Of a DNA stretch of 64,000 nt, positions 23,358 through 33,745 are shown piece by piece. Location of the stretch: positions 1 to 64,000 of the forward strand of contig JAFUDQ010000006.1 in the NCBI GenBank assembly GCA_017459075.1, read 5' to 3'. The stretch is from Bacteroidales bacterium (GTDB lineage: Bacteria; Bacteroidota; Bacteroidia; Bacteroidales; UBA932). The number at the start of each line of letters is the position of its first letter. Position 1 is the first letter of the stretch. Below the pieces are notes generated by a model. That model was given only the letters and a program-made list of their open reading frames with translations. It searched no databases and was not told the origin of the DNA. The position numbers and the translations under genes are program-made.

Positions 23358-25689
23358 TGTATTGATGCTGCTGTTATCTGTGCCGATGCTGGCGCAGAAC
23401 AAGCTGGAGACCGTATCTCCGGCTTTGGACAGCATTGCAGTACAACCCTTCAAGGCACGCCTCGACTCCATCAGGCAGCATCGTCCTACAGTTGCACTCG
23501 TCCTTAGCGGAGGCGGTGCAAAAGGAGCCGCCCATGTTGGGGCGCTCCGCTATCTGGAAAGCATAGGAATGCCGGTTGACATAGTTCTTGGAACAAGCAT
23601 CGGCGGCCTCATAGGAGGCTTATACTCAGTTGGTTACAGGGCTGCCGAACTGGATACTTTGATTCGCGGCATGGACTGGCCGGTCATTCTTGGAGACCGA
23701 ATACCCTCAAAATACATATCGCACGAAAAAAAGATTTACGACTCCAAAGTCCTGCTGTCCGTCCCGTTCGGGGGCTCTCTCCCGATTTCCGACGGGGCCT
23801 CCAAACAAAGCTTTGCCAAATCACTGGCGGCAAGCTTCCCCGGAGGACTTGTGGCAGGCCAGAACGTAAGCAACCTGCTTTCTTCGCTCACTGTCCCGTG
23901 GCAGGATTCCCTGTCTTTTGCCACCCTCCCTATACCATTTGTATGTGTGGCTACAGACATGGTAAGCGGCAAGGCAAAGGTGTGTTACGATGGCAACTTG
24001 CTGACGGCGATGCGTTCCACCATGTCCATCCCGGCCCTCTTCGCCCCTGTAAAGACAGACGGAATGGTGCTTGTGGACGGCGGAATGAGGGATAATTACC
24101 CGGTAGACCTGGCGCGCGAACTCGGGGCTGACATCGTCATAGGAGTATACCTTTCCCAGGGCTTCAAGAACTATGAAGAGATGAACAACCTCATGGATGT
24201 GTTGGTCCAGATGTCGGATCTCTTTGGCCGTCAGGTATTTGAGGCTAACCTTTCTTTGGCCGATGTCAATATTCATCCCGACCTCAAAGGCTATGACATG
24301 CTTAGTTTTGATGCCGATGCCATTGATATAATGATTGGCCGGGGCTATGAGGCGGCTGTATCCAAAGCCGATGAAATTAGCGCGGCCCTGTCGCGTGTGC
24401 GGCCTTCAAAGGCCGATACCGGTCCGGAGCCTGTTAACCTGGCCCATTCCAAGGTAAACATCGGCAAAATAAGGGTCGGGGGGCTGTCTGACCGGGAAGC
24501 GGCTTCGCTGATGTCTTCCATCAATTTACCGGCAGGTCAGCTTGGTAAGGAAGAGATTGAATCGGCAGTGGCAAGGCTCTTCGGTTCCGGTGCTTTTGAA
24601 ACCGTAAATTATTCTGTTACAGGTGATAACGAGCCTTATGAGCTGGTTTTCCAATGCAAGAAGGGGCCTGTAAACAGGGCCGGATTCGGCGCCAGGTTTG
24701 ACAAAGAGGAGCTGGTTTCAGTACTTCTGAACCTTGGCTTTAACGTGAATTCTGTTAAAGGATCGTCTTTGGATATAACTGGCAAAATCGGCGTAAATCC
24801 TTATGTGTCAGCAGATTATAAATATAAAACCGGGCTGGGGCTTGCCATCGGGGCAGAATCTTTTTACCGGTATGTAGACAGGAATAATTTCAACGTTGGC
24901 AAAAATACGTATCATGCTATATATCACCAGTTTAGGCAAAGCATTTATCTCTCCAGCTTCTCTCAAAGTTTTACGGAGATTAAGGCTGGCGTGAGGGCGG
25001 AATATACTAACATCGGCTCTTTGCTTGGGGATATTGGAAATGCAGAACTCAGTGGTGTTTACAAAAGCATTGCAGACAGTTACAGCGTTGGCAATAAGAA
25101 AGATACGTACTTCAGCGTTTTTGCGAATGCCTTAGTTGACAATACCGATGATGTTTATTTTCCTTCTCACGGCCTGCGGTTCAAGGGCTCCTATAGTTGG
25201 GTGCCTTTTTCCTGGCAGGAAGGGAAGATTGGTTTTCACAAGATTGGAGCGGAACTGACGGCAATAGTTCCTCTTGGCCCTGTCGTTTCTCTCATTCCAA
25301 GTGCTTATGGCTCAGCTATTTCCGGGGACTATAATCCATTTCCCTACGTGAATCTGGCCGGGGGACTGCTTCCGGGAAGATACCTTGACGGACAGATACC
25401 TTTCGCCGGCCTTGGCAGTGCCTTCACGGCTGCCGATGTCCTTGGCGTCGGGAGGGTGGACTTAAGATTCCGCCTGGCCGAAAATCATTATCTGACAGGA
25501 ACTTACAATCTTGCCGTAGACGCCTCGTCCGTTTCATCACTGTTCCGTTCCGGTGAGAGGAACCACATTCACGGAGCCGCCATGGAATACGCCTGGAACA
25601 CCATCGCCGGTCCCTTCCGCCTTGGCCTGTGGTGGAACTCCCTCAAGCACCGCACCTCCTTCTACTTCGCCATCGGCAAGAATTTTTAA
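23338..25689 (+). CDS. Patatin-like phospholipase with POTRA and outer-membrane barrel (PlpD type)
   Basis: This 783-aa protein starts at [10 protein letters not shown], which gives a clean signal peptide, rather than 15 bases earlier. The patatin domain covers about residues 50-320: oxyanion GGGAKG (58-63), nucleophile GTSIG (Ser87) and DGG (VLVDGGMRDNYP). A POTRA-like segment (about 370-430: KIRVGGLSDREAA) and a 16-strand-type BamA/surface-antigen barrel follow, ending in the aromatic SFYFAIGKNF. These proteins act as autotransported lipases or phospholipases in the outer membrane. The last 80 bases are duplicated at 26879. Confidence 0.93.
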   Translation: MKKIVYSVLMLLLSVPMLAQNKLETVSPALDSIAVQPFKARLDSIRQHRPTVALVLSGGGAKGAAHVGALRYLESIGMPVDIVLGTSIGGLIGGLYSVGYRAAELDTLIRGMDWPVILGDRIPSKYISHEKKIYDSKVLLSVPFGGSLPISDGASKQSFAKSLAASFPGGLVAGQNVSNLLSSLTVPWQDSLSFATLPIPFVCVATDMVSGKAKVCYDGNLLTAMRSTMSIPALFAPVKTDGMVLVDGGMRDNYPVDLARELGADIVIGVYLSQGFKNYEEMNNLMDVLVQMSDLFGRQVFEANLSLADVNIHPDLKGYDMLSFDADAIDIMIGRGYEAAVSKADEISAALSRVRPSKADTGPEPVNLAHSKVNIGKIRVGGLSDREAASLMSSINLPAGQLGKEEIESAVARLFGSGAFETVNYSVTGDNEPYELVFQCKKGPVNRAGFGARFDKEELVSVLLNLGFNVNSVKGSSLDITGKIGVNPYVSADYKYKTGLGLAIGAESFYRYVDRNNFNVGKNTYHAIYHQFRQSIYLSSFSQSFTEIKAGVRAEYTNIGSLLGDIGNAELSGVYKSIADSYSVGNKKDTYFSVFANALVDNTDDVYFPSHGLRFKGSYSWVPFSWQEGKIGFHKIGAELTAIVPLGPVVSLIPSAYGSAISGDYNPFPYVNLAGGLLPGRYLDGQIPFAGLGSAFTAADVLGVGRVDLRFRLAENHYLTGTYNLAVDASSVSSLFRSGERNHIHGAAMEYAWNTIAGPFRLGLWWNSLKHRTSFYFAIGKNF

Positions 25690-25694
25690 AAACG

Positions 25695-26600
25695 ATGAAT
25701 AAAAACGTAATCATATTCGGGAATCACCCCATAGTCAGCAGCCTGAAAAGCCAATTCGAGGTTAACGGGGACATAGTCTCCTCACAGGAGGCTTTCGCTA
25801 TTCCCGAAAGCCCTCCGGATGAAATGGTAATCTTATCATCTTCCCCCGATGGCGATTCTGACGCTGAGGATTTTCTGTCTGAGTTGGCCGTTGCTTATAA
25901 AGGCTCTGTGCAGAGTCGACCTCTTGTCCATCTTCTTCTTCGACAGCCCGGTTCTCTCCGGAAATACCAAGTCTCTGACTTTGAGCCCATCGTAAATGAG
26001 GTGTTTGAGGTTTATCCCTTCTCGATGGAGGAGGTTTGGGCTGATAATGTGATTGTTCGTCTCCCCGGTATTGACAGCCATAACCTCCAGGCGCTTGACA
26101 GGGAGCCCATTTCAGCGGAGAGTCATCAATTTGTACACCTTATAATTGCCGGCTTCGATAGTTATGCCGAGAGTATCGCTGTCAGGGCTGCCCAGGTGGC
26201 TCATTTCCCCAATTATGATGGTAAGGCCCGGCATCCGTTACGCACCAGAATCACAATTATCGCTCCCGGAATATCAACATCAAAGGATTCTTTTATCGCC
26301 AGATATCACAATTTGTTCGATAATTCCTATTATAGGACGGTTGATATCGATAAAAAGACTTCCACATTGCATCATCCTCTTTACGAAGGAAAGCGGGAAG
26401 ATTTTGTGGATGTGGAGTGGGAATTTGTTGACGGAAGTTTGAGTAATCCCGTCGTTGTTAAAAAGCTGTCCATGTGGGCGAAAGATTACGGCCGCCAACT
26501 GACACTTGTTATCACCGGTGATGATGACAATGCAAACATCGTTAATGCCATTTCGCTACCTGACATAGTACTGGAAAGCGAGACCCCCATTTGGGTTTAA
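25695..26600 (+). CDS. Unknown protein with Rossmann-like segments, possibly truncated
   Basis: This 301-aa protein starts at MNKNVIIFGNHP, five bases after the patatin stop. It shows two nucleotide-binding-like strands: VIIFGNHPIVSSL at the N-terminus and HLIIAGFDSYAESIAVRAAQ near the middle. A late VITGDDDNANIVNA and a LPDIVLESETPIWV end follow. This is reminiscent of TrkA/RCK NAD-binding repeats, but the glycine motifs are poor. The abrupt end in PIWV suggests the original C-terminal part is lost. The gene lies between the real patatin 3' end and its repeated copy. I do not assign a function. Confidence 0.6.
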   Translation: MNKNVIIFGNHPIVSSLKSQFEVNGDIVSSQEAFAIPESPPDEMVILSSSPDGDSDAEDFLSELAVAYKGSVQSRPLVHLLLRQPGSLRKYQVSDFEPIVNEVFEVYPFSMEEVWADNVIVRLPGIDSHNLQALDREPISAESHQFVHLIIAGFDSYAESIAVRAAQVAHFPNYDGKARHPLRTRITIIAPGISTSKDSFIARYHNLFDNSYYRTVDIDKKTSTLHHPLYEGKREDFVDVEWEFVDGSLSNPVVVKKLSMWAKDYGRQLTLVITGDDDNANIVNAISLPDIVLESETPIWV

Positions 26601-26608
26601 GCGCCGGT

Positions 26609-26731
26609 ATGTGTCTCTTTTCCGGACAGCATAACGACCATACACCCAAGGAGTATTCCTGCCTTGAGGAAATGATGGATGCTTACTATTTGCTCCTCTA
26701 CGCCGTGGACGAAATTGCAAATACTAAATAA
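26609..26731 (+). CDS. 40-aa ORF, probable gene remnant
   Basis: A 40-codon ORF (MCLFSGQHND to AVDEIANTK) follows the 301-aa gene by 8 bases in another frame. It looks protein-like (aromatic and acidic helix YYLLLYAVDEI) but has no recognisable family. It may be an internal piece of a frameshifted gene. Confidence 0.3.
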   Translation: MCLFSGQHNDHTPKEYSCLEEMMDAYYLLLYAVDEIANTK

Positions 26732-26878
26732 ATGATATTTGCGAGTCTGCGCGGTAGTTCCTGGCAAGATTCCCTAATGTGGATACTCTGATTGTAACTC
26801 TGGGCACCGATGGTAGTTGGGAAATATCCCGAAACCATGAGGAAATCAGTGCTATAATTTTAAACATACTGCCAGTAC
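26732..26878 (+). pseudogene. Decayed coding debris
   Basis: A short stretch reads as protein in one frame (ARFPNVDTLIVTLGTDGSWE) between in-frame stops. I see no start codon or ribosome site. I interpret it as debris of a lost gene in a recombination-prone gap. Confidence 0.3.
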
Positions 26879-26966
26879 TTTCCGCCTCGGCCTGTGGTGG
26901 AACTCTCTCAAGTATCGCACCTCCTTCTACTTCGCCATCGGCAAGATTTTTTTAAAACGCTTGTAG
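26879..26966 (+). pseudogene. Duplicated 3' end of the patatin/barrel gene
   Basis: The frame reads FRLGLWWNSLKYRTSFYFAI, then GKIFLKRL and a stop. It matches the last 24 residues of the patatin-barrel protein at 25614-25689 with about six base changes over 80 bases. Nothing upstream belongs to the same gene. It is therefore a remnant of a duplication or recombination event. Confidence 0.8.
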
Positions 26967-26989
26967 TTGGGAGATACAAGGTGTAAAAG

Positions 26990-27008
26990 CAGTGGGGTTA
27001 AACCGCTG
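26990..27008 (-). terminator. Possible terminator of the MFS gene
   Basis: On the minus strand CAGCGG pairs with CCACTG (one G-U) and is followed by CTTTTAC, 2 bases after the MFS stop codon. The stem is short and the T run weak. Confidence 0.35.
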
Positions 27009-27009
27009 T

Positions 27010-28359
27010 CTATCTGATATTTGGCAGTTCTAATTCGTGTTTGTTGTTTTTATCTTCTAACAGGAGCAGTATGCTAAGCAATATTGTTGCGATGCTTAGT
27101 AAAACAAATGATATGAATGCTGCTTTGTAACCAAACTTGAAATATATCCCACCGAAGGCAATCGGGAAACAAAACAATCCAATATTTTGTAGCCAAAACA
27201 TTAAGCCATACGCACTTCCTAAAACACTCCTGTCAACGACCTTAGTAACAGTAGGCCACATGGCGGCAGGAATAATTGCGTAAGATAGGCTTAATAAAGA
27301 AATAGCCAGGTATAAAGCAAAATTGGAGTGATAAGCAGGAAGGATAAAAGTAATTATCAGGAAGTACAAGAATGTAAGAATGCCGCCTACTAAAATAAAT
27401 GAAATTGTTCGGCCCCAAATATCAAATATAGAACATAGGAATGGGCTAAGAACAATAGCGATTGTAGGTAAAAATAACCAAACTTTTGAAACGAAACCTT
27501 CGTCATAACCCAAATCTTGGACAAGAGCCTTGGAAAGGAAGGCCTGTCCGCAATAAAGCAAAGCATAATAGCATATACATAGTAGTACAAATATCCAAAA
27601 GACCTTTGACTGGAGTGTTTTTTTCAGACCTTTAGTCGTAAAGCGCTCAGCTTGTATGGCGTAGGGAGATGAAATTGAGATTTTATTATCGTAATAACTA
27701 TAAAACATTAGAAGGCTAATGCCTATTAGAACAATTAGGACGCCTATAAATATAAGTCCTAATATGCTATATGGAAAAATAATATTGGAGATTTTAGGAA
27801 TAATCGTGGTGCTGCATATAACGCCGAGTCGGCAGAGTATTGTTTCTATGCCCAAAGCCAGAGCTAGCTCTTTGCCTTCAAACCACTTTACAATACACCT
27901 CATTACCAGTAATCCTGCACCCTCTAAACCGGCGCCGAATATCATAAAGCCCAATGAAGCCAATTTGGCTGATGCGGGCATTAATGAAATACTATGGGAG
28001 ATATAAACTTTATCAATAACTGTGTGCAACCAACTATTCTCAAAACTGTCAGTAAAAGCGTATAACTCAATTAATGCTCCTGTTAGCATGAATGCACCAG
28101 TCAAGCGAGCCATAAAGCGGGTGCCCTTTTTATCCAATAAAAAGCCTCCGATTATAAGGAATAGTAAAAATACATTGAGAAAAAGCTCGCTGCTTGCATA
28201 CATGCCATATACATCATCATCCCAGCCGTAGATATATTCAACCCATGTATTTATTGGAGAGAGTATATCAATAAACAAATAACCAGTAAACATAACAAAA
28301 GAAAGGAGAAGGAGGATCCCCCACCGCTTTGTCCAGGAATAATGTGTATTAATCACCAT
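27010..28359 (-). CDS. Major facilitator superfamily transporter
   Basis: This is a 449-aa inner-membrane protein with about 12 hydrophobic helices. I start it at MVINTHYSWTKRWG; an in-frame ATG 63 bases upstream is less likely. Segment 2 ends in GGFLLDKKGTRFMARLTG, the MFS A-like loop motif, and helix 4 contains RCIVKWFEGKELALALGIE. A cytoplasmic loop near the middle splits the two six-helix halves. The substrate is unknown. It is transcribed divergently from the SIR2-TIR/STAND operon across a 100-bp gap and shares its low GC, so it may have arrived on the same island. Confidence 0.88.
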   Translation of the reverse strand: MVINTHYSWTKRWGILLLLSFVMFTGYLFIDILSPINTWVEYIYGWDDDVYGMYASSELFLNVFLLFLIIGGFLLDKKGTRFMARLTGAFMLTGALIELYAFTDSFENSWLHTVIDKVYISHSISLMPASAKLASLGFMIFGAGLEGAGLLVMRCIVKWFEGKELALALGIETILCRLGVICSTTIIPKISNIIFPYSILGLIFIGVLIVLIGISLLMFYSYYDNKISISSPYAIQAERFTTKGLKKTLQSKVFWIFVLLCICYYALLYCGQAFLSKALVQDLGYDEGFVSKVWLFLPTIAIVLSPFLCSIFDIWGRTISFILVGGILTFLYFLIITFILPAYHSNFALYLAISLLSLSYAIIPAAMWPTVTKVVDRSVLGSAYGLMFWLQNIGLFCFPIAFGGIYFKFGYKAAFISFVLLSIATILLSILLLLEDKNNKHELELPNIR

Positions 28360-28405
28360 AGTAAACTGAATGTTGTTTGCGAATGTAATCAAAATAATCC
28401 ATATA

Positions 28406-28436
28406 TTTGATATTACATTCAAAAAAACTATATTTG
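28406..28436 (+). promoter_or_regulatory. Promoter of the SIR2-TIR/STAND operon
   Basis: TTTGA at 28406-28410 and TATATTTG at 28429-28436 are separated by 18 bases, a good Bacteroidetes promoter. The ATG of the first gene is 22 bases further on. Confidence 0.65.
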
Positions 28437-28458
28437 TATCTAATTCATTTATAAAGAT

Positions 28459-29814
28459 ATGGGCTTCAAACCGAAAGATTCAGACAGGATACGCCTAGAC
28501 AGAATTCAGGATGTCTCCTTTAACAGAGAACAATTCATTGAAGAAGTTTTGGATAATGAATACATTCTCGTTATTGGTGGTGAAGTTATTCTGGATAAAA
28601 GGGTAGAACCAACAGGGGATGTAAACCAGTATCTCCTCAATACAGTCAACTCTTTTCTGAAAACTGATTATTCCAGTTTGAATGATCTTGAACGTCATTA
28701 TGGCAATGGCGATGACCCTGTGAGGAATCTACTCACGGATTCTAATAACTTCGAGTATGAGTTATCAGACATTGAACCATCATTAAAGGAACTTCTTGAA
28801 CACCGGCTTTTCCCTGTCGTTCTTTCAACCACTTTTGACGGTTATATTGAAACCCTGATGAGACATATCTGGGGCGAAAAATTGCGCGTCGTCAATATCG
28901 ACGACAGAAAAAGTGTTCAGGAGTTCCGCTCAATCCTGAGAGAACATGGAGATAAGACACGTTATCTTGAACCTACGCTGATTTATATTTTTGGAAAGGT
29001 GTCGAAAGATGAGACCAAAAATTATGTGCGAACAGACGAGGATGCCATTAGAATTATAGAGAAATGGATGACTCTTCCTCAAGACGATCCGATTCTCAAG
29101 CTAATAAGAGGAAGAAAGATGCTGGCGCTGGGGTGCAAGTTTGAAAACTGGTATTTCCGTTTTTTCTGGTATGTTCTTCGGCATGAAACAATGAGGTTCA
29201 AAGAAGGACAAGTCGCGTTTGTGTTAAACGAGGGTGACATCGACGATAACCGGCTCAAACATTTTATGAGTCAGACAAGGATTTATTGTCATGGAGACGC
29301 ACGCGATTTTATGAAAGGATTGTCAAAAGACCTATCATCAGTAGATCCGAGCAGTCCTTTCTGGAAAATGATTCTAAACAAGAGAAGAAAAGGCGGAATA
29401 TTTTTGTCACATTGCAGTGTGGATAACGTTGCCGCAAGCGCACTGTTTTTAAAACTGACGAAGGCTGGCTACAGCGTTTGGTTTGATGGTGTATCTTTGA
29501 GAGGTGGAGATAATTATGAACAAAAGATTCAGGAGGCAATAAAGGATTCTCCAATCTTCCTGGCATTATTATCGAATAAAGTCAGAAATGATATTAACGA
29601 AGGAAGGACAGAAGAGTACTATATGAAAGAGTGGAAATGGGCTTCAGACTTTCATGTTAAAGGAATCTTCCCGATATCAATAGAAGACTATAATTTCAAG
29701 AGCTCTTATCATTCTGACGGTTTTCAAAGAATTGTAAGTTTGCCGTTGAATTGCGTGTCGGCATTCGAAATTGAAGACAAGTGTTTTGATTCATTTGATG
29801 AAGTCCTTAAGTAG
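28459..29814 (+). CDS. SIR2-like/TIR domain protein, putative immune effector
   Basis: This is a 451-aa cytosolic two-domain protein. Residues about 30-240 look like a SIR2-family fold: ILVIGG, STTFDGYIE (123-131) and LALGCKFENWYFRFF (222-236). The canonical catalytic pieces are altered, with TTF-D where TTN-D is usual, FGK where HG is usual and GGE for GAG. Residues 311-440 form a TIR domain (GIFLSHCSVDN, then AGYSVWFDGVSLRGGDNYEQ and SPIFLALLS). Glu391 in YYMKEWKW sits where the NAD-cleaving Glu of TIR enzymes falls. I infer NAD depletion or signalling upon infection, controlled by the STAND ATPase encoded 5 bases downstream. Confidence 0.82.
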   Translation: MGFKPKDSDRIRLDRIQDVSFNREQFIEEVLDNEYILVIGGEVILDKRVEPTGDVNQYLLNTVNSFLKTDYSSLNDLERHYGNGDDPVRNLLTDSNNFEYELSDIEPSLKELLEHRLFPVVLSTTFDGYIETLMRHIWGEKLRVVNIDDRKSVQEFRSILREHGDKTRYLEPTLIYIFGKVSKDETKNYVRTDEDAIRIIEKWMTLPQDDPILKLIRGRKMLALGCKFENWYFRFFWYVLRHETMRFKEGQVAFVLNEGDIDDNRLKHFMSQTRIYCHGDARDFMKGLSKDLSSVDPSSPFWKMILNKRRKGGIFLSHCSVDNVAASALFLKLTKAGYSVWFDGVSLRGGDNYEQKIQEAIKDSPIFLALLSNKVRNDINEGRTEEYYMKEWKWASDFHVKGIFPISIEDYNFKSSYHSDGFQRIVSLPLNCVSAFEIEDKCFDSFDEVLK

Positions 29815-29819
29815 AGATT

Positions 29820-31118
29820 ATGCCAGATATTATTAGTTTCAATCCTTGGATTGGTCTTGGACAGTATCCTGATCCGGAAGAAAGTTCAAATAAATACCTT
29901 TTTTGTGGGAGAGACCGTGAAATCAAGGACATTTATGACTTGATTGATGATAATATATTTGTCACCATCTACGGAAAAAGCGGGATAGGTAAGAGTTCAA
30001 TTCTTAAAGCCGGAGTATTCCCTGTGCTCAGGGATAATCGGTATCTTCCAATAATTGTCAGACTGTGGATGGATGCCCGTGGGATATCCTTTCAGGACTG
30101 TATCATCGATGCCGTGAATGCAGCAATCAAGAATAAAGGATATATCCAAACTCAAGACATTATCCCTCTATCTTCTGATAAAACCGAAGATGATTATTTC
30201 TGGCGTTATTTCGCCAGAACTTCGTTTAAATCTTTTGACGGAAAGACGCTGTTCCCAGTTATTGTATTAGATCAATTCGAAGAGGTACTACGGGAGAAGT
30301 CAGGTGAAGCGGAAATACTGCTTAGACAAATTGATTTTTTGGCAGATACCAGTCATGTTTATAATATTTCTGGGGGAATTCTTGATGGTTATGAATACGA
30401 TTATAATTATCGTTTTGTTTCCGTTATCAGAGAAGATGATTTGTATCGTTTAGAGGATGTTATAGACAATAATTTCCTTCCTAAACTAAAACAAGGACGT
30501 TTCCGTTTGAGAAATCTAACAGATAGCGGGGCAAGGGAAGTTGTTCTTAAACCAGCGAAGGGCCTTTTCCGCGAAGAGGCTAAAAAGGAAATCGTTGATA
30601 CTATTCTGGAATTATCCAAAGCAGATAACGATGGGGTTGTTTCCTCCCAGATTCTATCATTGGTATGTAACCGAATGTTTCGGGTATATCAGCAAAAAGA
30701 AGAACCTTACATAACTTTGGACCTGGTAAAATCGTTTGTAAATGAGAATCCTCTCAGAACTGTTTATTTTGAGATTGTCTCAAAACTTCCGTTCAGGCAG
30801 AGAAAATATCTGGAAAGGAATTTAGTGGATTCTTCCGGAAGAAGGAATTTCATATCATTTAACGACTTCAAGGATAATATTCCCGACGGAATGTATTTGC
30901 TTGGTGGCGATACGCAAATATTAGTTCAGACAACAATATCCTCACGCACGGGAGATTCTTGTGTGGAATTGATTCATGACTCTTTTTGCGATGTTGTAAA
31001 GTGGGAAAACGAAAAAGAAAGACAGGGTAGCAAAAGGGCTTCCTTTATTATCCTGTTAATAGTCTCCCTTTTAATGATACCATTCATTATACTTTTCTTT
31101 TATTCCTTATTATCCTAA
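29820..31118 (+). CDS. nSTAND-type P-loop ATPase with C-terminal membrane anchor
   Basis: This 432-aa protein has the nSTAND1 pattern: a FNPWIGLGQYPDPE lead, CGRDREI, Walker A GKSGIGKS (52-59), KAGVFPVLR, Walker B VIVLDQFEEVL (147-157), an arginine-sensor strand FVSVIREDDLYRL and the ELIHDSF block (384-390) that normally precedes sensor repeats. Instead of WD40, TPR or other repeats the protein ends in one hydrophobic helix (408-430). STAND ATPases oligomerise on ligand binding and activate an effector. Here the effector is probably the upstream SIR2-TIR protein. The missing sensor and the membrane anchor are unusual and suggest sensing at the envelope. Confidence 0.85.
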   Translation: MPDIISFNPWIGLGQYPDPEESSNKYLFCGRDREIKDIYDLIDDNIFVTIYGKSGIGKSSILKAGVFPVLRDNRYLPIIVRLWMDARGISFQDCIIDAVNAAIKNKGYIQTQDIIPLSSDKTEDDYFWRYFARTSFKSFDGKTLFPVIVLDQFEEVLREKSGEAEILLRQIDFLADTSHVYNISGGILDGYEYDYNYRFVSVIREDDLYRLEDVIDNNFLPKLKQGRFRLRNLTDSGAREVVLKPAKGLFREEAKKEIVDTILELSKADNDGVVSSQILSLVCNRMFRVYQQKEEPYITLDLVKSFVNENPLRTVYFEIVSKLPFRQRKYLERNLVDSSGRRNFISFNDFKDNIPDGMYLLGGDTQILVQTTISSRTGDSCVELIHDSFCDVVKWENEKERQGSKRASFIILLIVSLLMIPFIILFFYSLLS

Positions 31119-31154
31119 GTTGTTTTGAATCAAGTTAAAATTTTATAATAAGGC

Positions 31155-31610
31155 ATGGAAGAGCGACAGAAAAAAGTATTGGACCGTCTGCAGGCGCAGT
31201 GTTCCAGACGCGAATATTGTATCAAGGATATCAGGGAGAAGGCGTTGAAGGCACTGGATGGTGATGCCGATGCAGCATCGGCCATTATTGATTCTTTGGT
31301 TGAGGAGCGTTTTGTGGACGAACTTCGTTATGCTTCTGCTTTTGCACGCGAAAAGGCTCATCTGACGGGCTGGGGGCCGATAAAAATATCGGCTGCGCTT
31401 AGGGCGAAGGGCATTCCGTCCGGCGTTATTAAGGAGGCTCTGTCAGAGGCTTCGGATGAGGAGGCTGCCACAAAGCTTGAGTCCGTCCTGCGGGCAAAAT
31501 TCCGCACCCTGGAGGGTGAACCGGATGCCAAGCTGCGCCTTATAAAATTCGCCCTTCAGCGGGGTTATGACTACGAACAGGTTCGCGTGGCCGTTGATAA
31601 GATTATTTAA
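31155..31610 (+). CDS. recX: Regulatory protein RecX
   Basis: This 151-aa all-helical protein binds the RecA filament and inhibits or tunes its activity. Three tandem three-helix repeats are visible: the first has RREYCIKDIREKAL, the second LVEERFVDELRYASAFAREK with the GWGPIKISAALRAKGIP block, and the third LRLIKFALQRGYDYEQVR. It is unlinked from recA (about 9 kb away). GC rises back to the level of the core genes here, marking the right edge of the AT-rich island. Confidence 0.93.
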   Translation: MEERQKKVLDRLQAQCSRREYCIKDIREKALKALDGDADAASAIIDSLVEERFVDELRYASAFAREKAHLTGWGPIKISAALRAKGIPSGVIKEALSEASDEEAATKLESVLRAKFRTLEGEPDAKLRLIKFALQRGYDYEQVRVAVDKII

Positions 31611-31621
31611 AATTTGACATA

Positions 31622-33745
31622 ATGAAAAGAATAGCAATCCTGGCAATAGCCTTGTTATCAAGTATTTGCATCTCTTGCAAACAAGACCTTACCGTATCCT
31701 CTCCGGACGGACGGATTAAATTCGGCCTTGGCATAGAAGGCGGCCGCCTCAGTTACAATGTTCGTGTAGACACCGCCTGCTTCGTGTTGCCATCGGCCCT
31801 TGGACTTCAGTCAAAAAGGGTAGTGATGGATAAGGATTTCAAGTTGATGGGCGTTAAGCACAGCAGCGTATCAGAGGCCTGGACTTCGCAGTGGGGAGAG
31901 AACAAGGAGCATCAGGATGTTCATAATGAGCTTGAGGCTACTTTCAAGAATCCGGACGGCGTAGTGCTGACCATCCGTGCCCGCGCCTTTGACGACGGCG
32001 TTGGCTTCCGCTATGAATACAAGGTCCCGGGTGACTCCGTGAAGGTGACAGACGAGCTTACCGAATTCCGTCTTGCGAGCGGCGGCACTTCTTGGTCAAT
32101 TCCTGCCAATTTCAATACTTATGAATTGGAATACAGGACTTTACCTCTTGCCGATGTTGCCGATGCCAACACTCCTTTCACTTTCAAGACCGATGAGGGC
32201 CTTTATGGTAGCATCCATGAGGCCGCCCTTTACGATTACCCGGAGATGACCCTTCGGAGATTTCTCCACTCCGGTCGAAATGACAAGGATGTGTCAGATT
32301 CTCCTCGACTGAGCGAAGACACTTTGTCATTTCGACCGAGCGAAGACTCTTTGTCATTTCGACCGAGCGAAGCGAGTGGAGAAATCTCCTTCCGCGCAGA
32401 CCTGGCCCCCTGGCCTGACGGCATAAAAGCCCGCGTCCCCTCTGAATTCCACACTCCCTGGCGCGTTATTCTTATAACCAAGGACGCCGCCGGCCTTGTT
32501 AACTCAGACCTCATCCTAAACCTAAACGAGCCTTGCGCCATAGATGATGTGAGCTGGATTAAGCCCCAGCGCTATGTGGGTGTCTGGTGGGGAATGCACC
32601 TTGGAATTGAGGCCTGGTACGATGACGGCCCTGGCCGCCATGGCGCTACCACTGCCAATGCTATCAAATACATCGACTTTGCTGCCAAAAACGGCATAGA
32701 AGGCGTTCTCTTCGAGGGGTGGAACGACGGCTGGGCCTCCTGGGGCTCCCGTGAAGACTTCGACTTCACAAAACCGGCTCCGGACTTCGACTTTGAAAAA
32801 GTCATTGACTACGCCGCATCCAAGGGCATAAATTACATTCTTCATCACGAGACCGGCGGCAACATCGTCAGTTATGAAGCCCAGCTGGACAAGGCCCTTG
32901 ACTGGGCTGCCGCGCATGGCATCCATTCTCTTAAGACAGGTTATGCCGGAGGCATCTCTAACGGCCACAGCCATCATGGACAGTATATGGTTCGCCACTA
33001 TCAGAAAGTTGTTGAGGAGGCTGCCAAAAGGCAGATTATGGTAGATGCCCACGAGCCAATTAAGGCCACGGGAATCCGTCGTACCTGGCCTAATTTCATG
33101 TGCCGTGAAGGTGCCCGCGGAATGGAGTGGAACGCCTGGAGCGAGGGCAACAAGCCTGAGCATCAGACCATCCTCTCTTATACCCGCCTGCTGGGAGGTC
33201 CCATGGACTACACTCCCGGCGTATTCGACATCCAGTATCGGAACATCATCGGCAATAAGAATCTGAGAATGTGGAATAACAATCGTCTGGCAACAGAGTG
33301 CCGTTGCAATACCACCCTTGCCAAGCAGATTGCAGATTGGGTTGTGCTCTACAGCCCTATGCAGATGGCCTGCGACCTGGTGGAAAACTATGAGGGACAT
33401 CCGGCCTTCCAGTTCTTCCGTGATTATAATGCCGATTGTGACTGGTCGCGCGCCCTTGCCGGTGAGGTAGGGGATTACATCGTAGTGGCCCGCCGCGCTG
33501 GTGAGGTTTATTTCCTTGGCGCTGTTACTGACGAAAATGCCCGCACCCTGGAGCAGCCGCTGGACTTCCTTCCTGCCGGAAAGACTTATGCAGCAACTAT
33601 TTATGCCGATGGTGCCGATGCTTCCTGGGAGGCTAATCCATATTCTTACCAGATTACTTCCCGCGAAGTTACATCTGCCGATACCCTTACTTTGAACCTT
33701 GCTACCTCCGGTGGCTGCGCAATAGTATTCAAGCCCGTTAAGTAA
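31622..33745 (+). CDS. GH97 family alpha-glucosidase (SusB-like), lipoprotein
   Basis: This 707-aa exported glycoside hydrolase releases alpha-linked glucose or galactose units. A lipoprotein signal (SICISC, Cys about residue 19), an N-terminal beta-supersandwich (SSPDGRIKFGLGIEGG) and a central (beta/alpha)8 barrel (VLFEGWNDGWASWG, HHETGG, VDAHEPIKATG) are clear. A C-terminal beta sheet follows. HHETGG and the following SYE match inverting SusB-type members as I remember them, suggesting alpha-glucosidase rather than retaining alpha-galactosidase activity. Residues about 212-256 (LHSGRNDKD, LSFRPSEDSLSFRPSE) are a translated copy of a palindromic repeat. The stop overlaps the next ATG by one base. 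Confidence 0.95.
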   Translation: MKRIAILAIALLSSICISCKQDLTVSSPDGRIKFGLGIEGGRLSYNVRVDTACFVLPSALGLQSKRVVMDKDFKLMGVKHSSVSEAWTSQWGENKEHQDVHNELEATFKNPDGVVLTIRARAFDDGVGFRYEYKVPGDSVKVTDELTEFRLASGGTSWSIPANFNTYELEYRTLPLADVADANTPFTFKTDEGLYGSIHEAALYDYPEMTLRRFLHSGRNDKDVSDSPRLSEDTLSFRPSEDSLSFRPSEASGEISFRADLAPWPDGIKARVPSEFHTPWRVILITKDAAGLVNSDLILNLNEPCAIDDVSWIKPQRYVGVWWGMHLGIEAWYDDGPGRHGATTANAIKYIDFAAKNGIEGVLFEGWNDGWASWGSREDFDFTKPAPDFDFEKVIDYAASKGINYILHHETGGNIVSYEAQLDKALDWAAAHGIHSLKTGYAGGISNGHSHHGQYMVRHYQKVVEEAAKRQIMVDAHEPIKATGIRRTWPNFMCREGARGMEWNAWSEGNKPEHQTILSYTRLLGGPMDYTPGVFDIQYRNIIGNKNLRMWNNNRLATECRCNTTLAKQIADWVVLYSPMQMACDLVENYEGHPAFQFFRDYNADCDWSRALAGEVGDYIVVARRAGEVYFLGAVTDENARTLEQPLDFLPAGKTYAATIYADGADASWEANPYSYQITSREVTSADTLTLNLATSGGCAIVFKPVK
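32256..32389. repeat. Palindromic repeat inserted in frame in the GH97 gene
   Basis: A perfect 16-bp inverted repeat (32256-32271 with 32374-32389) encloses two tandem 27-bp units beginning TTTGTCATTTCGACCGAGCG (32324 and 32351) plus a diverged third. TCGAAATGACA is the same core as in the intergenic array at 12570-12668. The reading frame stays open across the whole insert. Confidence 0.85.

Follow-up and report, generated by a model that had tools for sequence, protein, structure and literature searches.

Our analysis of a 64,000-nucleotide (nt) stretch of a Bacteroidales genome (assembly GCA_017459075.1, contig JAFUDQ010000006.1, positions 1 to 64,000; hereafter the window) reports a pair of adjacent genes, A and B, which we consider rather probable to form a two-gene STAND/TIR immune module, with a membrane-bound STAND switch (B) and a separate TIR effector (A). 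Gene A joins a degenerate SIR2-like domain to a TIR domain, and gene B encodes an nSTAND1-type ATPase with a predicted membrane helix. As far as could be tested, the pair is conserved and unnamed, a variant of known split TIR/STAND systems, and judging by its domains it probably serves in anti-phage defence. The features on which the argument turns are the following.

28459..29814, + strand, gene A: degenerate SIR2-like domain (N-terminal ~290 residues) and C-terminal TIR domain (314-410), 451 amino acids (aa), ATG start
28831..28833, + strand, codon 125 (Thr) of gene A, at the position of the SIR2 catalytic Asn of TTNxD: T21 S10 N4 C1 (n=36)
28990..28992, + strand, codon 178 (Phe) of gene A, at the position of KomC His146: F28 L5 Y3, His in 0/36 sequences
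29629..29631, + strand, codon 391 (Glu) of gene A, predicted catalytic TIR glutamate: Glu in 36/36
29820..31118, + strand, gene B: nSTAND1-type ATPase, 432 aa, ATG start; Walker A GKSGIGKSS, Walker B VLDQFEE, IHD near the core end
31044..31100, + strand, predicted membrane helix of gene B (residues 409-427, by hydropathy); five residues remain after the helix

Genes A and B form a conserved unit

The two open reading frames (ORFs) lie 5 bases apart on the same strand. We collected 40 distinct SIR2-TIR loci, 37 of them found through A (L061-L072, L103-L124 less L113, which is the same contig stretch as L061, L154-L156, and the window) and three through B (L161, L162 and L164); loci are given by these labels where they have to be told apart. 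Three A-found loci run off their contigs (L110, L120 and L155), so that adjacency could not be tested there, and L124 was counted as adjacent through its fragments. An nSTAND gene was next downstream of A, on the same strand, in 32 of the 34 testable loci, or 31 of 33 without the window, and the gaps between the two genes ranged from -88 to 382 nt across adjacent loci. The adjacency that the initial annotation proposed to look for across genomes is thus borne out. The eight loci chosen by B (L161-L168) included three with SIR2-TIR genes, two with a SIR2-like protein lacking TIR and three with neither, so A predicts B better than the reverse. The two proteins have also diverged together: over 28 pairs, the distances between A proteins and those between B cores (first 400 residues) gave a Mantel r of 0.91, which none of 5000 permutations reached (best 0.41), and there was no sign of partner reshuffling among these pairs. 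We rejected chance neighbours on the grounds of this adjacency and co-divergence, and the A/B pair is a real unit. Against the module stand L068 and L069 (99% identical to each other), where gene A has no STAND gene alongside.

The family is sparsely distributed. Any match to A was found in 33 of the 393 genomes of the order sample, 20 by TIR alone and 13 taken as full-length, window included; three further genomes of this sample (G010, G035 and G128) were missed by A and recovered through B. The A profile matched 67 of 395 genomes in the phylum sample, where we read nine SIR2+TIR loci in eight genomes including the window's own, one of them broken (G569), and SIR2 only in G422 and G514. In the genus sample 11 of 200 genomes matched A at E 0.001; beyond the window, SIR2-TIR matches came from two loci of G918, one of which contains a stop, from G946, where a contig end cuts the match, and from G802, where it is broken and distant; the others were TIR only. 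A close-relative query of named genomes gave 14 loci, of which 12 are titled Bacteroidales, Bacteroidia, Bacteroidetes, Bacteroidaceae, Prevotellaceae or Prevotella; the other two, titled Lachnospiraceae and Clostridium, may come from misbinned genomes. By title, the named relatives are mostly metagenome-assembled genomes of rumen Bacteroidales, whose defences are, to our knowledge, little studied. There was no second copy of gene A in its own genome at E 0.001, no tblastn match to it on plasmids or phages at 1e-5, and none in 52 candidate viral stretches, where the query could pick up only close relatives.

The TIR half of gene A is the likely enzyme

Pfam recognised TIR_2 at residues 314-410 of gene A above the cut-off (E 8e-14), and SIR2_2 at residues 120-262 just under its 24.5-bit cut-off (22.7 bits, E 1.2e-4). 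When a profile of 21 gene A N-terminal domains was compared with the PDB, the best-scoring solved SIR2 domain was that of KomC (8zsf, 4.5e-8), and matches were also obtained to 7uxt (8.3e-8), FAM118B (7.4e-4) and ThsA (8wc0, 0.0014). Residues were counted in 36 A proteins, window included; we omitted L106 for its broken frame, L124 as fragmented, L154 for an in-frame stop and L155 as cut, and both near-identical pairs (L061/L110, L068/L069 and L120/L121, 97-100%) and further pairs above 85% (L107/L109, L108/L114, L122/L123 and L071/L164) were retained.

The signature of an active SIR2 domain is mostly gone. The TTNxD site reads STTFD in the window copy, with Thr in place of Asn, and the Asn is lost in 32 of the 36 proteins. 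The catalytic His146 of KomC, its position taken from PDB entry 9xvc (named H146N), aligns to F178, and all 36 proteins lack this His. SIR2 proteins typically carry a GAGxS motif, and GAG was absent from the first 80 residues of every A protein. In Avs5 the active SIR2 domain carries TTNxD, and the substitutions N110A, D112A and E202A each abolish immunity (PMC12931631; here and below, cited papers are drawn on for individual sections). A SIR2 domain without the catalytic Asn would be expected to be inactive. Because the SIR2 signature is mostly lost while the TIR glutamate is invariant, the TIR half is likely the enzyme of gene A, a predicted NADase, and the SIR2 half is most likely a dead, non-catalytic scaffold for docking or assembly. 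The initial annotation had rightly singled out Glu391, and its further suggestion that the SIR2 half is an NADase is now unlikely.

Several points nevertheless count against a dead SIR2 domain, and they are the ones that a two-headed enzyme, with SIR2 and TIR both cutting nicotinamide adenine dinucleotide (NAD), would draw on. The SIR2 fold is kept; the Asn is present in four proteins (L067 and the mutually related L071, L161 and L164), and 29 proteins, that of the window among them, keep the TTNxD Asp. NG replaces HG in about half of Avs5 proteins, and the Avs5 SIR2 domain works with NG (PMC12931631), so that the loss of His alone proves nothing and the argument lies in its joint loss with Asn. 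Several loci are closely related to each other, so that the counts given in this analysis are not independent. The four Asn-bearing proteins are a possible exception to the dead-SIR2 reading. For the family, an active SIR2 domain was rejected as the main account on the loss of Asn, His and GAG, and we regard the two-headed enzyme as very improbable.

Gene B is predicted to be a membrane-anchored switch

Gene B matched Pfam nSTAND1 at residues 21-294 (E 1.2e-20), and nSTAND3 only at 0.02. Walker A, Walker B (DQFEE), an Arg past the next strand and IHD varied hardly or not at all in two alignments, one of 11 and one of 14 sequences; the IHD motif resembles, we presume, the MHD motif of NLRs. Since the ATPase motifs including IHD are all present, the 432 residues seem to make up a complete STAND switch. 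Searched against the PDB, a profile of the B core matched no STAND protein (best E 0.02).

According to the initial annotation the ATPase ends in a membrane helix, which is true of the window copy but not of the family, where the helix lies mid-protein in nearly all relatives. A hydrophobic helix at residues 400-500 was found in 32 of 34 B proteins adjoining SIR2-TIR genes (L124 excluded), and in the 26 relatives measured it is followed by 129-1193 residues (two cut by contig ends). Lys and Arg in the 20 residues flanking the helix averaged 7.0 on the N side versus 3.1 on the C side, with the N side richer in 24 of 26 proteins. This bias predicts a cytoplasmic ATPase and a tail outside the cytoplasm. 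Four observations tell against such a topology: the B proteins of L115 and L119 are the two without the helix; those of L122 and L123 have extra helices and a reversed charge bias; cysteine is hardly rarer in tails than in cores (0.86 vs 1.06 per 100 residues), which fails to support export; and WD40 tails, found in several relatives, are usually regarded as cytoplasmic.

Tails and third genes vary among the relatives

The tails beyond the helix appear to be swapped readily. No tail similarity was detectable between L108 and L114, whose cores are 80% identical, or between L061 and L108 (cores 76%), and tails were conserved in the closer pairs L061/L106 (cores 92%, tails 55%) and L107/L109 (cores 84%, tails 86%). 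A Pfam scan of the tails of 24 B proteins from SIR2-TIR pairs identified WD40 propellers in seven (L061, L071, L104, L106, L114, L116 and L162), FGE-sulfatase in L070, TPR in L108 and weak LRR and WD40 matches in L065; no convincing known domain was seen in the remaining tails of this set. The nSTAND partner in L115 (L115:9370-12834), besides having no helix at 400-500, carries a second TIR domain of its own (443-554) and hexapeptide repeats, and the gene after it encodes a TIR plus methyltransferase protein.

Eleven loci have an ORF that overlaps B or starts no more than 20 nt beyond it. Six of these third ORFs (L062, L063, L064, L070, L111 and L168) have, by a crude rule, a hydrophobic start, compared with 82 of 413 background ORFs; those of L062 and L064 are related and that of L111 is a multi-helix membrane protein. 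Those of L067, L103, L104 and L167 lack such a start, and that of L123 reads as masked bases. When gaps of up to 200 nt were allowed, a third ORF with a hydrophobic start was present in 11 of 26 STAND-adjoining loci, the window not among them. Pfam was uninformative for many of the third genes.

Two of the B-chosen loci (L168:3948-10452 and L167:1551-5845) show the order SIR2-like protein without TIR, nSTAND with membrane helix, and then an LRR gene; the LRR gene of L168 starts like a signal peptide, and that of L167 does so only from a later start codon. Both loci have a SIR2-like protein and a STAND but no TIR, a first hint that what is constantly linked to the STAND may be the SIR2-like domain and not the TIR.

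A bolder form of the proposal is an outward-looking, NLR-like receptor: an inner-membrane STAND with swappable extracytoplasmic sensors, either the tail or an exported partner such as the LRR or FGE-sulfatase-like proteins, which through a dead SIR2 adaptor would fire a cytoplasmic TIR. As a whole we hold it only tentatively and think it somewhat unlikely. If true, phage sensing would take place at the envelope, not once the genome has entered the cell.

The same outward-facing tails, as predicted, and the exported partner genes of some relatives would also suit a module for a cell-surface or stress response (e.g., to bacteriocin, to envelope damage or in kin recognition) that has no anti-phage task. 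A 240-aa gene lies just upstream of gene A in L107:3637-4359 and L109:7270-7992; the L107 copy matches the PrsW intramembrane protease, and the L109 copy has no PADLOC match. This PrsW protease beside one relative, an FGE-sulfatase beside another and the weak defence-island context all fit such a surface function. On the other hand, TIR proteins adjoin L104, L107, L109 and L115, and the combination of TIR, STAND and fast-swapping sensors is a pattern that we associate with immune systems (PMC8195603). A purely surface or stress role is, in our estimate, unlikely.

The initial annotation suggested testing for adjacency inside defence islands, and this context proved weak: three of ten chosen neighbours of relatives matched PADLOC models (TIR, HEAT-ARM and ThsB-like) and seven did not, and the window pair itself is flanked by an MFS transporter gene and recX. 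The defence role is argued from architecture, not from island position.

The window copy lacks a tail

Among 30 uncut B proteins (L112, L121, L154 and L156, cut at the 3' end, were omitted) that of the window is the shortest, with 432 aa against 561-1630 for the other 29. In the pair described here B has no tail, and the neighbours include neither an exported third gene nor defence genes; this weighs against its acting as the immune module that we favour for the family, and its functionality is uncertain. It keeps the switch, the helix and the effector. The sensor part would be absent, whether through loss or from the outset, and the copy may thus be a disabled remnant or a minimal form whose partner lies elsewhere. 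As a remnant, B would have been cut just past the helix by an insertion or deletion, leaving a switch without a sensor and an inert locus. The short length of B agrees with this, as does the position of its stop 36 nt before recX, by which the missing tail coincides with the insert edge. These 36 nt, however, leave no room for a remnant of a tail, and both ORFs are open, the ATPase and TIR motifs are intact and a promoter-like site is present. We consider a disabled copy a real possibility without thinking it probable; it concerns the window alone and is compatible with the STAND/TIR immune module in the family at large.

The pair differs from named systems

As the initial annotation proposed, the pair matches no named system: with PADLOC (of 2023) and NCBIfam, no model fitted A or B beyond the TIR domain, a result that, given the age of the models, leaves the absence of a name unproven. 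The weak matches were of A to SIR2-Argonaute (E 0.042), of B to mad8 (0.017) and AbiLi (0.031), and, at the level of the TIR domain, to ThsB (E 0.005) and to ThcB4 (E 8.6e-4, well short of the cut-off). In the literature searched, which did not extend to bioRxiv, we found neither the term 'SIR2-TIR' nor the combination of a SIR2-TIR effector lacking the SIR2 catalytic residues with a membrane-anchored nSTAND.

The initial annotation also took the division of effector and ATPase between two proteins to be new. This does not hold, since a pair of one STAND-FGS and one TIR protein with Death-like domains was described by Kaur et al. 2021 (PMC8195603), in whose relevant sections nSTAND1 is among the STAND clades of such proteins; the split alone is thus not new. 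Those systems resemble the present pair in the TIR protein gene adjoining a separate STAND gene and in the variable C-terminal domains, including FGE-sulfatase-like (FGS) ones. They differ in that both of their proteins carry bDLD3, while A and B showed no shared domain in the Pfam scan, and in that here a degenerate SIR2 is fused to the TIR and a membrane helix follows the STAND core (compared with the same sections of PMC8195603). No EAD or Death-like domain was seen in the Pfam scan of A and B, and no search aimed at EAD was made. Sections of two other papers bear on the membrane part: membrane helices with an extracellular binding domain are mentioned as a variable part of conflict systems (Kaur et al. 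2020, PMC7159879), and according to the predictions of a 2024 study one target of a STAND-type locus has NACHT and CLec domains in the periplasm (PMC10907252).

Avs5 likewise couples a PF13289 SIR2-like domain to a STAND ATPase with variable C-terminal repeats, and there an essential SIR2 NADase and nSTAND3 form one protein (PMC12931631). The present pair consists of two proteins: the effector is a TIR whose accompanying SIR2 lacks both Asn and His, and the STAND is an nSTAND1 with a membrane helix. Avs5/AVAST membership was rejected on the two ORFs, nSTAND1 rather than nSTAND3, and STTFD in place of TTNxD. Thoeris type I also has TIR and SIR2 domains within one pathway, in which a signal made by the TIR protein is received by a separate ThsA that carries a SLOG or macro domain (PMC12948488); in our pair TIR and SIR2 share one chain and a STAND is added, and Thoeris was rejected as neither A nor B has a SLOG or macro domain. 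KomC of Kongming, the closest solved SIR2 domain by score, has TTNYD and His146, is described there without a TIR, and acts with KomA and KomB (PMC12948488, PMC12774641); the genes next to the window pair are an MFS gene and recX.

B matches the nSTAND1 profile and has both Walker motifs that mark this clade, and A has the conserved glutamate expected of a TIR NADase. TIR-NLR and Avs proteins are single-protein STANDs, in which a STAND switch has an enzymatic output; here the effector is a separate gene. TIR-NLR membership was rejected because TIR and STAND are not one chain and the PADLOC TIR-NLR model was absent from the A/B matches, although L115, among the relatives, does carry a TIR inside its STAND.

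The pair lies in a low-GC insert next to recX

Around the pair the window contains these further features.

25629-26600, 323-aa ORF; its first part overlaps the end of the patatin-like gene
25690..31154, no strand, insert between the patatin-like gene and recX: ~5.5 kb with the 323-aa ORF, the MFS gene (- strand) and genes A and B
27010-28422, - strand, MFS gene, within the low-GC island and opposite to the pair
28406..28436, + strand, putative Bacteroidota-type promoter TTTG-N19-TATATTTG, a pattern match 22 nt 5' of the gene A ATG

The layout given in the initial annotation, two genes 5 bases apart behind one promoter-like site in an AT-rich insert, agrees with the ORFs, the promoter pattern and the base composition, with a G+C content (GC) of 37-39% across 27-31 kb and mostly ~50% in the surroundings. 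The promoter call uses what we take to be the Bacteroidota-type consensus; with a spacing of 18-21, this pattern turns up 10 times in the window, where shuffles give an expectation of 1.03.

recX was located in 29 of 31 genomes of the genus sample, the window's own genome included. The patatin-like gene directly precedes it in 17 of 19 same-genus loci read around recX, and rlmN does so in the remaining two. In 16 of the 17 closed loci the patatin-recX gap is -14 to 38 nt (starts approximate), and in the 17th, L138, ~150 nt by alignment. The A/B pair looks like an acquired accessory module. An 89-nt direct repeat (90%) occurs at 25606-25694, in the 3' end of the patatin-like gene, and again 1.3 kb downstream at 26871-26959, between the 323-aa ORF and the MFS gene, so that the repeats frame the 323-aa ORF; it is probably a footprint of the insertion history at this site. 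The 323-aa ORF had no match in a Pfam scan at E 0.001, and no Rfam element reached the gathering score over 25500-31700. Farther on, two copies of TGTCATTTCGACCGAGCGAAG lie at 32325-32372, inside the ORF 31622-33745. This sequence has 46 copies (≤2 mismatches) in its own genome and none for the reversed control, and is a REP-like dispersed repeat extending into coding sequence.

Proposed mechanism

In the STAND/TIR module that we favour, B would be a cytoplasm-facing ATPase switch held in the inner membrane by its single helix, and A a separate effector made of a SIR2-like domain for docking or assembly and an active TIR domain. The trigger, for instance a phage at the envelope, would be recognised in the relatives by the stretch of B that follows the helix and is probably periplasmic, and in some cases also by an exported third protein. 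B would then cluster, driven by ATP, and bring A into clusters, and the TIR domains would cleave NAD+, or make an NAD-derived signal, and growth would stop.

If this is right, a SIR2 fold has been turned from an enzyme into an adaptor, and a membrane-anchored STAND switch has been fitted with exchangeable sensors. An immune receptor of these bacteria may then read the cell exterior, as animal Toll receptors do with TIR.

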